DNA of 64,000 bases from Litorimonas taeanensis (GTDB taxonomy: Bacteria > Pseudomonadota > Alphaproteobacteria > Caulobacterales > Maricaulaceae), in assembly GCF_003634015.1 (NCBI RefSeq), contig NZ_RBII01000002.1, positions 399,597 to 463,596 of the forward strand. The letters run 5' to 3'. Position numbers and translations under genes: made by a program. This document shows, in pieces, positions 6,150-11,157 of the stretch (positions within the stretch are counted from its first letter, which is position 1; each line of letters starts with the position of its first letter). Below the pieces are notes generated by a model. That model searched no databases. It was not told the DNA's origin and saw nothing but the letters and a program-made list of their open reading frames with translations.

Positions 6150-6716
6150 ATGACACATTTAAAAACATTTTTGGTAACAGCGGCAGCGAGCTTAGCCTTG
6201 GCTTCACCGGCCTTTGCAGATGGCCATATGGAATCAAAAGCCAAAGTCGAAGCCTCGGCCAAAGTTGATGCAAAAATTAAAACAATGTGGGAGAATATGT
6301 CGGCCACTGAAAAAGCCGAGCATCAAGCCAAGATGCTATCGATGTCATCTGATGAAAAAGCGGCTTATAAAATGAAGCTGCTTCATAAGACAAAGCTCAA
6401 CTCTATGACGCCAGAGGAAAGAGCCGCCTATAAGCAGAAGAAAATGAAAAAAATGTCTGCTGATGGTAAAATGACCATGAAAGACAAAATGCATACAATG
6501 ACCGATGCCGAGAAGGAGGCGCACAAAGCCAAAATGATGAATATGACAGATATGGAAAAAAAGGCGCATAAAAAGAGCCTCATGTCTGCGCCAAGCGTTA
6601 TGCAAAAATCATCAACCAATACACAAATCACAACGAGCGTAAGCTGCCCAGCTGGTACGACGGCTCAGCCTGATAACACATGTTTGATTACAGGTGATTT
6701 TGCGCCAAAAGGCTAG
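6150..6716 (+). CDS. secreted Lys/Met-rich repeat protein, unknown function
   Basis: A clear signal peptide ends near ASPAFA-DG (residue 24). Residues 50-146 consist of six imperfect units of about 15 residues (starting near 50, 65, 86, 102, 117, 132) of the form M-T-x-x-E-K-x-A-H-K-x-K-M-M, rich in Lys, Met, Glu and His. This predicts a long amphipathic helix. The C-terminal 40 residues differ and hold two cysteines (SCPAG and NTCLI) that could form a disulfide. I do not recognise a named family. Met/His-rich periplasmic helices can bind metals or act as chaperones, but that is inference. A strong terminator lies about 105 bp after the stop. Confidence 0.7.
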   Translation: MTHLKTFLVTAAASLALASPAFADGHMESKAKVEASAKVDAKIKTMWENMSATEKAEHQAKMLSMSSDEKAAYKMKLLHKTKLNSMTPEERAAYKQKKMKKMSADGKMTMKDKMHTMTDAEKEAHKAKMMNMTDMEKKAHKKSLMSAPSVMQKSSTNTQITTSVSCPAGTTAQPDNTCLITGDFAPKG

Positions 6717-8032: not shown

Positions 8033-9046
8033 ATGCGCTTGCCTTTTTATTTCTTAGCGGCCTTGCTTGGCGGCGGCCTATGCCCTGCTGCGGCGCAGGC
8101 CCAAACAGCATCGGACACCGATTTAGAGCTTTACGGATCGTGGAGGCTCCATGCCAATTATGTCAGCGTCGACGAATCGTCTAACCCAGAAGGAGACGGA
8201 GAGCTGGGCTTAACAGACGCCTATTCCCGATTGGGCGCAAAATTACGCTTTGGCGATGAGGCCATAAAAATAACAGCGCGGTACGAGGTAAACATCAATT
8301 CTGCAGATTTAGAGTTAGGCGATCCTTCATTTTTCGACGACGAAGATTCCCGCCTATATAGTGTCAAAGCCGAAGGGAAATTCGGAACCGTATTAGTCGG
8401 CAAGGACTGGCTGCCTTATTATAATAATATTGGCTATCCCGTAGATTATTTCAGCTCCATCTATGCGGGCTACACCACTTATGCTTATTTTCGAGAGCAT
8501 CAAATCACCTATATAACGCCAAGAGTTAACGGCTTTAGCGGAAGCCTAGCCCGAATGCAGCGCACAGGCGGGGGGGCCAAAGGTTGGCACTATGCCTTGT
8601 CTTACGTCAAAAATGGAGTGACGCTTGCGGCAGGCCGAGAAGATATGGACGGCGCCGAAGCGGACACACAGGGCGTGGCCTTATCTTATACTCATAAGGA
8701 TTGGTATCTGGCGGGAAAATACGAAAAGAATGATATAGCTGGAACGATTTATAACGGCTTTGTCCAATATCGGCGCGGCCCCTATAGCTTTAAAGCGGGG
8801 CTCGGGCTTGGCGATCAATATTCAGGTGACACCTACCATTTGGGTGTGGACTATCATCTGAACGCACAATTTAAACTCTTCACGGAATTTTACGCCGAAG
8901 AATTAAACTACGCCCTGCTTCGTAATGATGCACAAAGGGCAAGCGATTATTTCGGTGCAGGCGGCTTTGGCGTTCGGCAAAATGGCAAGGCCATCCTCAC
9001 AGGGTTTCGATGGGATTTCTCCTTTCGCCCTCAACACCATCAATAA
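8033..9046 (+). CDS. outer-membrane porin, Gram-negative porin family
   Basis: A signal peptide ends near AAAQA-QT (residue 23). The rest is typical beta-barrel sequence with alternating aromatic strands: ELYGSWRLHANYV, SRLGAKLRFGDE, KAEGKFGTVLVGKDW, YALSYVKNGVTLAAGR, ALSYTHKDWYLAGKYE and near the end TGFRWDFSF. It lets small hydrophilic solutes cross the outer membrane; its selectivity cannot be read from the sequence. The extension RPQHHQ after the terminal aromatic strand is slightly unusual, since porins normally end in an aromatic residue. Its stop overlaps the stop of the opposite channel gene by 7 bp. Confidence 0.85.
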   Translation: MRLPFYFLAALLGGGLCPAAAQAQTASDTDLELYGSWRLHANYVSVDESSNPEGDGELGLTDAYSRLGAKLRFGDEAIKITARYEVNINSADLELGDPSFFDDEDSRLYSVKAEGKFGTVLVGKDWLPYYNNIGYPVDYFSSIYAGYTTYAYFREHQITYITPRVNGFSGSLARMQRTGGGAKGWHYALSYVKNGVTLAAGREDMDGAEADTQGVALSYTHKDWYLAGKYEKNDIAGTIYNGFVQYRRGPYSFKAGLGLGDQYSGDTYHLGVDYHLNAQFKLFTEFYAEELNYALLRNDAQRASDYFGAGGFGVRQNGKAILTGFRWDFSFRPQHHQ

Positions 9047-11157
9047 AATTTCACCAACATAGCAGTGAGCAATATCGCAAAGAATATCGGGAAATAAACC
9101 GCCCGATAAATTTGATTGTCATTAAAATCGAATAGGCTGGTTTTGTTTTTCGTATAAAACATCAAATTCAAAGTCGATGCGACTATCATGAAGTAAGTCG
9201 CAAAGTAGAAATACTCCATAAAAATAACATCTGCCGTCACGATGTCTTTGCGAAGATCAATATGCGAGAAAATCAGCACAAAGAAAAAGGCGGCCATGCT
9301 CTCTATAATGCCTTGTCGGGCCTCTGTTTTTCCACACGCCATAATCAAAATATATATCAAGCAAAGCGCCACAAATATCGGAATTAAATATGTAACAAAG
9401 GCATTGAGCAAAAGACGTTTAATATGAACATTATAATGTAAAATAGAGGTATTCTCTAAAAAAGCTTTCGAGCCATAACCCATATTGAAATCATAACTTT
9501 TCGTAGAGAAGTTAAAATAGCTCCGCGTTATCTCATTACCAGACATGACAATGTCTGGATTTAATCCCGCTAACTTTGTCGGGCTTGTGAAATCATAACT
9601 GTTTAAATCAGGTACAAAAATTAAATTATCATTCTGCGACTTGGGTGTGATTTGAATATCTAAATGCCGTTTATCAAAAGGGAAATCAGCATATTTTAAA
9701 TTCAGGCGAAGTGTCACGCGATAATCAAACCCGACGAGAAGATAGCCCGCTTCGCCTTCTTTGCCTTTGACAGATTCTCTATATGCCTCTTCGATATAAG
9801 ACGCCTCTGCAAAGGGGGATGTTTGGGGAAAGCGAATACCGACTTCAATTTCATCGGACATATCCAGAGGATATTTCTGCCACACAACTCCGCCAAAATT
9901 GACATTATAGCTATCAATGAAATCTATTCTCTCAACATAAATTCCTGTTGGAACCACAATAGGCGGGTCAATCTTTAACGCCTCTGCGCGGCTATTTTGC
10001 CGAGAGACATAGGCTTCTAGGCTAGACGTATCTATGACAGGCGGACTTTCTGCGGCGCCCAATGACCCGACTGAACCATGTTGAAGGAAACCGATAAACA
10101 CAACATTGGCGATGAGCAGCAGAGTCGCCAATAGGCTGATGACTTCTATCTCCATCGCGTCGAGAACATCACGACCAAAATAAAGCGTAATAGCCAAGAC
10201 GCATAACACAGAAAACGTCAGAAACATTTTTATGTAACGGCGATTTCTTTGGCGCTGGTCGTCCATCATATCGCGCTTAAAAAACACCATACCCATGCCG
10301 AAATCGGCAATTTCCAATTGGTCATAGAAAATCAAAGAGTGATCATTATGCTCGGCATCAAAAAATTCAGAATAGCCCGACTTCTTGTCAATTATACCCT
10401 GATAAGCGGCCTTCAAACGCGGTCTGTTTTCTTCGGCTAAGAGAGATTGCACCGTCTGGGTGCCGACGAAATCGGCATTAGGATGGGTAATAAAGCTTCC
10501 ATTTTTTGATGTGATAAACCCATACCCGGCCTTACCCACCGTCAACCCATGTACAATGCGTTTGAAATCACCCACTTCGAGGGAGAAATCTATGATCCCT
10601 CTAATCTGTCCCTTTTTCGGGCCAGAGGCATAATAAAACGGCACGCCGTAATCGACGAACCATTCACCTGCGGCGGCCCCATAATAGGGATTAGCCCAAG
10701 CCTCACCGAACTCCACCACATCTGTGTACCATGCCGTGCCATCGCGTTTTACAGTGTAATCATAGCTATCCCCGACATCGAGATAAGATTGAGAGCTCTT
10801 ATTATAATAAGGGCAATATAAGGCCTGAGTTTCAGAAAAGGCGTATTTCTCATAGCAGGCCGTGACGCCGCGTATTTCGGGGTAATCCAAGGCGACTTGA
10901 CGAATGAGGTCTTTGACTTCGGCATCCGTAAATTCACTCTCACCAAATTTTTGGCCCAGCTCATCACCTGCAGCTTTCACCGTGTGCAAGAGCGTTTCTA
11001 TGTCAGTTTTTAAAGAGGCGGTTATCGCCTCGCCTGTTTCTATAGCCTGAGTTTCTTGGGATTTTACGTAACGCCCATAAGAGATGACATTGAAGGCCAA
11101 AAACCCAGCCGTTAGCAACAGCAATAGATAGAGTATGATACGGGTCATCTTCTTCAT
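9040..11157 (-). CDS. dCache sensor fused to a pentameric ligand-gated ion channel (Cys-loop receptor family)
   Basis: Domains in order: TM1 (about 7-26); a periplasmic double-Cache/PDC sensor (30-300) with the hallmark GYGFITSKNGSFITHPNADF near 211-230; two TM segments (308-328 and 338-358) that return the chain to the periplasm; a pLGIC extracellular domain (about 400-575) with PTGIYVERIDFID and the family hallmark ADFPFDKRHLDI (490-501); then four channel helices M1 (580-606), pore-lining M2 (613-634), M3 (643-668) and M4 (686-704). This topology puts both sensor domains outside and fits pLGIC architecture. Cache domains bind small molecules such as amino acids or amines, so this may be a channel gated by two ligands. 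The ligand and ion are unknown. Confidence 0.85.
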   Translation of the reverse strand: MKKMTRIILYLLLLLTAGFLAFNVISYGRYVKSQETQAIETGEAITASLKTDIETLLHTVKAAGDELGQKFGESEFTDAEVKDLIRQVALDYPEIRGVTACYEKYAFSETQALYCPYYNKSSQSYLDVGDSYDYTVKRDGTAWYTDVVEFGEAWANPYYGAAAGEWFVDYGVPFYYASGPKKGQIRGIIDFSLEVGDFKRIVHGLTVGKAGYGFITSKNGSFITHPNADFVGTQTVQSLLAEENRPRLKAAYQGIIDKKSGYSEFFDAEHNDHSLIFYDQLEIADFGMGMVFFKRDMMDDQRQRNRRYIKMFLTFSVLCVLAITLYFGRDVLDAMEIEVISLLATLLLIANVVFIGFLQHGSVGSLGAAESPPVIDTSSLEAYVSRQNSRAEALKIDPPIVVPTGIYVERIDFIDSYNVNFGGVVWQKYPLDMSDEIEVGIRFPQTSPFAEASYIEEAYRESVKGKEGEAGYLLVGFDYRVTLRLNLKYADFPFDKRHLDIQITPKSQNDNLIFVPDLNSYDFTSPTKLAGLNPDIVMSGNEITRSYFNFSTKSYDFNMGYGSKAFLENTSILHYNVHIKRLLLNAFVTYLIPIFVALCLIYILIMACGKTEARQGIIESMAAFFFVLIFSHIDLRKDIVTADVIFMEYFYFATYFMIVASTLNLMFYTKNKTSLFDFNDNQIYRAVYFPIFFAILLTAMLVKFY

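Follow-up and report, generated by a model that had tools for sequence, protein, structure and literature searches.

Results

A Cache domain and a channel-like half share one reading frame

The window analysed here is a stretch of 64,000 nucleotides from the alphaproteobacterium Litorimonas taeanensis (contig NZ_RBII01000002.1, positions 399,597 to 463,596), and the element under study is a 705-codon open reading frame (ORF) at 9040-11157 on its minus strand, which runs from ATG to stop with no internal stop codon. The gene converges with one for a porin-like protein, and the 3′ ends of the two overlap by 7 bp (Table 1). The original prediction, which named no strand, held that the encoded protein combines a dCache sensor domain, two extra membrane helices and a complete pentameric ligand-gated ion channel (pLGIC) with an FPFD motif and helices M1-M4, and that both of its sensor domains are periplasmic. 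We compared the protein with relatives by means of a profile from four channel halves (A2), a profile from 31 full-length members (A3), a 19-row set of pLGICs fused to a periplasmic binding protein (PBP) domain (A4, from which the wrong-frame sequences L019 and L037 were removed before hhalign was run), and a structure alignment of 64 rows (A5).

The N-terminal half matches Pfam dCache_1 over residues 33-245 with an E-value of 2.7e-8 and a score of 34.1 bits, below the family cut-off of 45 bits, and all 31 A3 members match the same family at E 0.01 or better (best 5.4e-17). The A3 profile identifies the dCache structure 3LI8 (E 1.2e-24) and, at E about 4e-4, alpha2-delta-1. In a Foldseek comparison of the AlphaFold2 model with the Protein Data Bank (PDB), 3LI8 is again among the first-listed entries (E 1.2e-12, TMt 0.79). 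The predicted dCache domain is therefore borne out by Pfam, by the A3 members and by Foldseek, and this gene is the only one in its genome to match dCache_1.

The model, calculated with AlphaFold2 on the 64-row alignment (mean pLDDT 89.2, pTM 0.80), comprises a Cache-like alpha/beta domain, two further transmembrane (TM) helices, a beta-sandwich with strands spanning residues 400 to 581 and the FPFD motif at the place given in Table 1, and four TM helices; its helices cover residues 2-73 and the ranges listed in Table 1 for TM2, TM3 and M1-M4. Among the 50 PDB matches listed by Foldseek, dCache structures come first and ELIC, GLIC and sTeLIC appear from rank 7, with the GLIC entries listed at E 1.5e-10 to 6.6e-10 and TMt 0.67-0.74. 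GLIC entries are also found by the A2 profile (E about 1e-4), whose aligned part, positions 88-312 of 323, begins midway through the beta-sandwich and reaches M4; its best row is a GLIC/GLRA1 chimera (E 2.1e-5). The A3 profile matches a GLIC chimera at E 8.3e-4. Comparison with the PBP-fused pLGICs by hhalign gives a probability of 99.7% over 281 columns in global mode and 99.1% over 274 in local mode; within that set, 7 of the 19 rows match Neur_chan_memb and 17 match Peripla_BP_6. P593 in M1 and R581 just before M1 are each present in at least 90% of the 64 rows, and match, without superposition, the helix-bending proline, glycine or serine of M1 and the basic residue ending the ligand-binding domain that sections of Tasneem et al (2004; PMC549065) list as pLGIC features.

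On the strength of the model, the C-terminal half is a pLGIC, with a predicted beta-sandwich that carries an xPxD loop and four TM helices. The complete channel of the original prediction is thus upheld by the A2 and A3 profiles, AlphaFold2, Foldseek and the homologues, and the model contains both the beta-sandwich and the four-helix bundle. As judged from its sequences, the clade of the window protein is a divergent branch.

Membrane topology

Hydropathy peaks fall at residues 7-25, 309-327, 339-357, 591-609, 617-635 and 686-704, with M3 below the threshold used. Hydrophobic segments occupy the places of TM1, TM2 and TM3 in all 39 Cache-bearing A5 rows longer than 600 aa (the window protein included), so that the Cache layout with three TM segments is more than chance, and these rows together with the model confirm the two extra membrane helices. 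Each of the 25 shorter A5 rows has at least one hydrophobic segment ahead of the channel. The proposed periplasmic placement of both sensor domains gains support from their separation by an even number of helices and from the nature of the two families, and on the same basis of family and helix count we infer that the TM2-TM3 loop of the window clade lies on the cytoplasmic side.

Table 1. Features of the Cache-channel gene and its convergent neighbour, in window coordinates
Feature	Position	Strand	Basis
dCache-2TM-pLGIC gene, 705 aa	9040..11157	-	ORF, model, homologues
TM1, residues 7-25, N-terminus inside	11083..11139	-	hydropathy; hydrophobic segment kept in 39/39 Cache rows; K/R-rich N-terminus
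dCache domain, residues about 33-300, predicted periplasmic	10258..11061	-	Pfam dCache_1, A3 members, Foldseek
TM2, residues 301-326	10180..10257	-	model; 39/39 Cache rows
TM3, residues 334-361	10075..10158	-	model; 39/39 Cache rows
pLGIC ligand-binding beta-sandwich, residues 398-581	9415..9966	-	model, Foldseek; GLIC profile match covers second part
FPFD of Pro/Cys-loop equivalent, residues 492-495	9673..9684	-	P493 invariant, D495 in at least 90% of 64 rows
M1, residues 583-607	9337..9411	-	model; P593 in at least 90% of 64 rows
M2, presumed pore helix, residues 614-638	9244..9318	-	model; R636 invariant in 64 rows
M3, residues 647-670	9148..9219	-	model; family signature EYFY; E648 and Y649 invariant in 64 rows
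M4, residues 682-704	9046..9114	-	hydropathy, model
Porin-like protein gene, 337 aa, convergent with channel gene	8033..9046	+	ORF; porin label is a by-eye reading; possible partner

The Cache pocket departs from the amino-acid and amine motifs

Published work, in the portions available, describes an amino-acid motif of dCache_1AA domains with R126 and D173 in PctA numbering and an aspartate equivalent to PctD D235 in the amine sensors dCache_1AM (both PMC10104139), and a five-residue motif of McpH type in the purine sensors dCache_1PU (PMC11245519). Pocket columns were anchored on the WY pair and an alignment with 3LI8/3LIB, not on PctA itself. The amino-acid motif is ruled out by T141 and S192, which stand at the R126 and D173 columns of the window protein, and the amine motif by S192 at the PctD D235 column. 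Arginine occupies the first pocket column in none of the 39 Cache rows (one has lysine), and aspartate the second in five. Throughout the 17-row clade of the window protein both columns hold threonine or serine, with serine in 14 rows and threonine in three at the S192 column. The predicted pocket of this clade is conserved, and by its residues fits neither the amino-acid nor the amine motif; with regard to the dCache_1PU motif, the window protein has the shared aromatic pair, W143 and Y144.

The fusion recurs across phyla

Relatives were collected by scanning genome_contigs (84,980 species) with A2, from which 80 of 121 relatives at 79 loci were kept; the scan was seeded by one peptide pattern and is biased toward that signature. 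At E 1e-3, matches occur in 29 of 398 genomes of a phylum sample and in 5 of 385 genomes of a class sample, each count including the genome of L. taeanensis itself. Relatives are found in Vibrio sp. THAF191d, THAF191c and THAF64 and, for the channel half only, in Acaryochloris marina; another comes from an alphaproteobacterium, G394, which appears to be the same record as L089 (same 765-aa ORF, same score). One scan of viral contigs yielded no relative.

A Cache domain is present in 52 of the 91 family proteins compared and absent in 39 (one open at its 5′ end), its carriers including 17 of 20 proteins from Bacteroidota, 14 of 14 from Cyanobacteriota, 11 of 36 from Pseudomonadota and 3 of 3 from Methanobacteriota, among others. 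On a quick maximum-likelihood tree, the Cache label changes only twice among 90 rows, the 5′-open row being left out; as far as these sequences indicate, the fusion therefore seems old, stable and common. Sequences dropped from the 91-row tree were copies of the window or G394 gene (L001, L003, L004, L008, L012) and of L009 (L010), fragments or weak matches (L017, L022, L038, L039, L040, L059, L084, L102, L106, L120), and channel matches of at most 100 bits, namely PBP-fused proteins, the stand-alone L005-L007 and, in the clusters described below, the middle genes. Two further gene structures were seen in this family: an archaeal member of 1,267 aa (L078:1091-4891) has, by eye, two copies of the Cache region ahead of the channel, and in the record of Aquimarina agarilytica (L106:2840-4942) the Cache-channel gene appears as two ORFs.

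A probable Bacteroidota-type source

The window protein falls in a tree group of 16 rows, 15 of them from Bacteroidota (SH-aLRT 97), enclosed by a group of 19 rows with 18 from Bacteroidota (SH-aLRT 100). Its nearest row is a Saprospiraceae protein (65% over 310 columns), and its channel half is 46-64% identical to Bacteroidota copies; the full-length alphaproteobacterial relatives L069, L081 and L089 have an overall identity to it of only 23-24%. Because the window copy groups with 18 Bacteroidota sequences, the gene was probably transferred from a Bacteroidota-type source into the alphaproteobacterium, the direction being read from the nesting in a tree rooted at its midpoint.

Among 18 genomes of the genus, 12 of which pass the quality bar, the full channel gene occurs in its own genome only. 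Genome G009 contains a remnant-like 105-aa ORF (L002:1420-1737) that resembles Cache residues 27-102 and ends early, adjoining a gene for an ABC-transporter ATPase that looks LptB-like by eye. In the window, the channel and porin-like genes sit between folE and sdaA. The sister genome G015 keeps the order and orientation of folE and sdaA, but about 15 kb separates them and contains 11 other ORFs of 100 aa or more; because this interval is filled in that way, the slot is variable rather than empty, which falls short of proof of a clean insertion. Five other genus genomes read near sdaA (L143-L147) do not keep the gene order of the window, and hold no further window gene there save one 24% match in L146. 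A functional operon with sdaA, which lies on the same strand with an 83-bp gap between the two genes, was also considered and rejected: sdaA is present in all 18 genus genomes, 17 of which are without the full channel gene, and we therefore do not take it as a functional partner.

Neighbouring porin-like genes and channel clusters

A search of the 17 other genomes of the genus at E 0.001 gave no match to the porin-like gene of the window, and the product of this gene gave no significant family match and no PDB match, with an uninformative single-sequence model. In 9 of 18 Bacteroidota loci (L042, L059 and L084 being left out for a missing upstream neighbour or a partial channel gene), a porin-like gene immediately precedes the Cache-channel gene, with gaps of -56 to 72 bp that rest on unverified start codons. 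These nine genes (L045 to L052 and L055) form one family, of porin-like proteins of the outer membrane. Neither HMMER (E 0.033 among ten proteins) nor hhalign (5.8% probability) supports homology between the window gene and this family.

Other arrangements were observed elsewhere. In Vibrio sp. THAF191d the channel gene overlaps by 4 bp a gene for a 207-aa protein, a membrane protein by eye with no clear Pfam match, which in turn overlaps a gene for a solute-binding protein (SBP_bac_3), an arrangement that speaks for a link to solutes. Four gammaproteobacterial loci (L062:2804-7929, L083:1440-6052, L108:1071-6259 and L075:1-4975) carry clusters of three pLGIC genes, of which one has a Cache domain, one is divergent (366-370 aa; E 3e-5 to 9e-7 with A2) and one is short (381-394 aa), and this arrangement suggests heteromeric channels; at L062 a methyltransferase-like gene is among those lying between the cluster pLGICs. 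Tandem pairs of Cache-channel genes occur in four cyanobacterial loci (L079, L088, L094 and L100).

The GC content is 0.427 for the channel gene, 0.495 for the porin-like gene and 0.477 for the window. In a promoter/terminator scan, promoter-like matches were about as many as in shuffled sequence (9 against a mean of 7.0, sd 2.9) and terminator-like matches were more numerous (11 against 5.1, sd 2.2); no site was assigned from either. PADLOC placed neither the channel nor the porin-like protein in a defence family. Elsewhere in the window, positions 6150-6716 on the plus strand encode a secreted-looking protein that is very rich in Met, Lys and Glu and contains repeats, and which has no Pfam match and a partial match of about 40% in the sister genome.

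Discussion

Proposed working of the protein

We consider it probable, at roughly three chances in four, that the gene encodes a subunit of an inner-membrane pentameric ligand-gated channel with two periplasmic sensors per subunit and an ion current as its output. Homomeric assembly, the membrane topology, the direction of transfer and the working of the protein are what we infer from the evidence above. In each subunit the dCache domain would be held between TM1 and TM2, with the pLGIC's own ligand-binding beta-sandwich following TM3. With plausible help from the porin-like protein encoded next door, a small solute would reach the periplasm and bind the Cache domain; the resulting change would pass through the TM2-TM3 hairpin, through domain contacts or through both to the beta-sandwich, and so tune the opening of the M2 pore. 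From this layout it is reasonable to expect that the channel is controlled by a ligand bound to the Cache domain. The current could act on membrane potential or ion homeostasis, or perhaps on the flagellar motor, rather than through an MCP/CheA relay.

Several observations weigh against this reading or parts of it. Searched alone against Pfam, the window protein matches no pLGIC family, Neur_chan_LBD and Neur_chan_memb included; phmmer against PDB sequences returns no pLGIC, only chemoreceptor and histidine-kinase sensor domains and a chance match at E 0.71; and the 12 rows of the window clade, searched by themselves, hit neither a PDB sequence nor any of the Pfam models for pLGICs. An NCBIfam search with the window protein also returned nothing, and Neur_chan_memb has no match in the L. 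taeanensis genome or in any of 14 control genomes, which makes the latter search uninformative. Wider-family profiles were needed because these single-sequence and close-clade searches gave no pLGIC. A profile search for both halves, as the original prediction proposed, therefore succeeded for dCache_1 (E 2.7e-8) and failed for Neur_chan_LBD and Neur_chan_memb with the single sequence and the close clade; the absence of a pLGIC profile match, literally true for Pfam, is overruled by the A2 match to GLIC, by hhalign and by Foldseek. Within the channel half, HMMER and hhalign place M2 in registers one residue apart, both gapped, and E612/A613/R614 was for this reason dropped as a cation- or anion-selectivity motif. 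The charges beside the extra helices of the window protein conflict with the positive-inside rule, with a net acidic TM2-TM3 loop (1 K/R, 4 D/E) and a basic segment before TM2 (6 K/R, 3 D/E), and none of the 17 rows of the window clade has a net basic loop, against 19 of 22 rows outside it. The neighbouring gene may encode an outer-membrane porin-like protein, a by-eye label that no tool confirmed, and it does not share the AT-richness of the channel gene (GC 0.495 versus 0.427). One of three tested members of the Bacteroidota porin-like family gives weak matches to DcaP (E 0.0024) and Porin_O_P (E 0.0026), both below the cut-offs, and the other two give no Pfam match.

Of the alternatives, all of them unlikely, the least so is a chemotaxis receptor, the role suggested for Cache-fused pLGICs in part of Tasneem et al (2004; PMC549065), in which the current would steer motility and the Cache domain would concentrate or sense attractants. 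The genome, 99.95% complete, does encode flagellin, but has no match at E 0.001 to PF00015 (MCPsignal) or PF01584 (CheW), each of which is matched in 7 of 14 control genomes. The protein is therefore unlikely to act as a classical chemoreceptor, with only a direct effect on the motor left to this alternative, and a channel current is the likely output. Somewhat less probable again is a non-conducting signalling or transport protein derived from a pLGIC, in which the Cache domain would signal through the fold without an ion pore. It would fit a clade too divergent for the pLGIC Pfam models, whose M2 region has E619 and is without the M1-M2 linker residues found in 50 of 64 rows; however, the model has no cytoplasmic effector domain and the channel half is conserved (the 46-64% identity to Bacteroidota copies noted above), which leaves the helix bundle as the only visible output. 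A chance fusion or an assembly artefact is refuted by homologues in several bacterial phyla and an archaeal group that share the Cache fusion, and by a frame open without a stop.

If the ligand-gated channel with two sensors is correct, a more speculative extension, to which we would give little weight, is that it forms part of a transferable two-membrane conduit, in which the porin would admit the solute through the outer membrane and the Cache-pLGIC of the inner membrane would sense it and open, to give a fast electrical response to a cell without an MCP or CheW match. In other organisms, Cache-bearing and Cache-less subunits from one cluster (L062, L075, L083, L108) might then form heteromers in which some subunits carry the second sensor.

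Significance

Prokaryotic pLGICs serve as the usual models of neurotransmitter receptors. The dCache-pLGIC studied here, modelled with confidence and encoded in a genome without an MCP or CheW match, would offer a clean system for the gating of a pentameric channel by a second, independent sensor, and it parallels the Cache domain of alpha2-delta-1. What is new here is how common and stable the fusion looks, the grouping with Bacteroidota and the probable transfer, the possible porin association and the subunit clusters, the last two being fresh leads.

Comparison with known systems

The original prediction left open whether this layout had been described, and it had: as far as we found, the Cache-fused pLGIC layout has been known since 2004, and the window gene is a further member. 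Sections of Tasneem et al (2004; PMC549065) report an MCP-N and a Cache region N-terminal to prokaryotic pLGICs of Methanosarcina, Cytophaga and Microbulbifer, as well as an operon in Rhodopseudomonas that encodes a Cache protein separately. Compared by description only, these proteins share with the window protein the order of a Cache domain followed by a ligand-binding domain and four TM helices, and a sporadic distribution that suggests lateral transfer; they differ in coming from other organisms, the window copy belonging to a Bacteroidota-type subclade, and the text sections on them do not mention the two extra TM helices. Our literature search for pLGICs with a Cache or dCache domain, which left most subscription papers outside its reach, found no later work on such fusions, and the papers it found report no bench study of one; a term search of PMC4795631 gave no mention of Cache.

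The structurally characterised channels resemble the window protein in its second half. GLIC, ELIC and sTeLIC have the ligand-binding beta-sandwich, the FPFD-type loop and M1-M4, but their matches span the channel half only, at 10-17% identity among the Foldseek matches listed, and to our knowledge they have neither a Cache domain nor extra helices. DeCLIC likewise has an extra periplasmic N-terminal regulatory domain, and is described in part of a recent source as the only pLGIC in which such a domain is partly characterised, "little is known" being its verdict on these domains (PMC12664993). That domain, however, consists of two jelly-roll lobes according to the portion of PMC9897478 available, and DeCLIC (9ev1) is a weak overall match to the window model (TMt 0.31). 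The PBP-I-fused pLGICs also join a periplasmic solute-binding domain to a pLGIC, with a profile-profile match over the channel, but their sensor fold is Peripla_BP_6. Finally, the dCache_1 sensors of histidine kinases and chemoreceptors (3LI8/3LIB, PctA) and alpha2-delta-1 share the sensor fold of the window protein, whereas its predicted output is a channel instead of a kinase or chemotaxis module.

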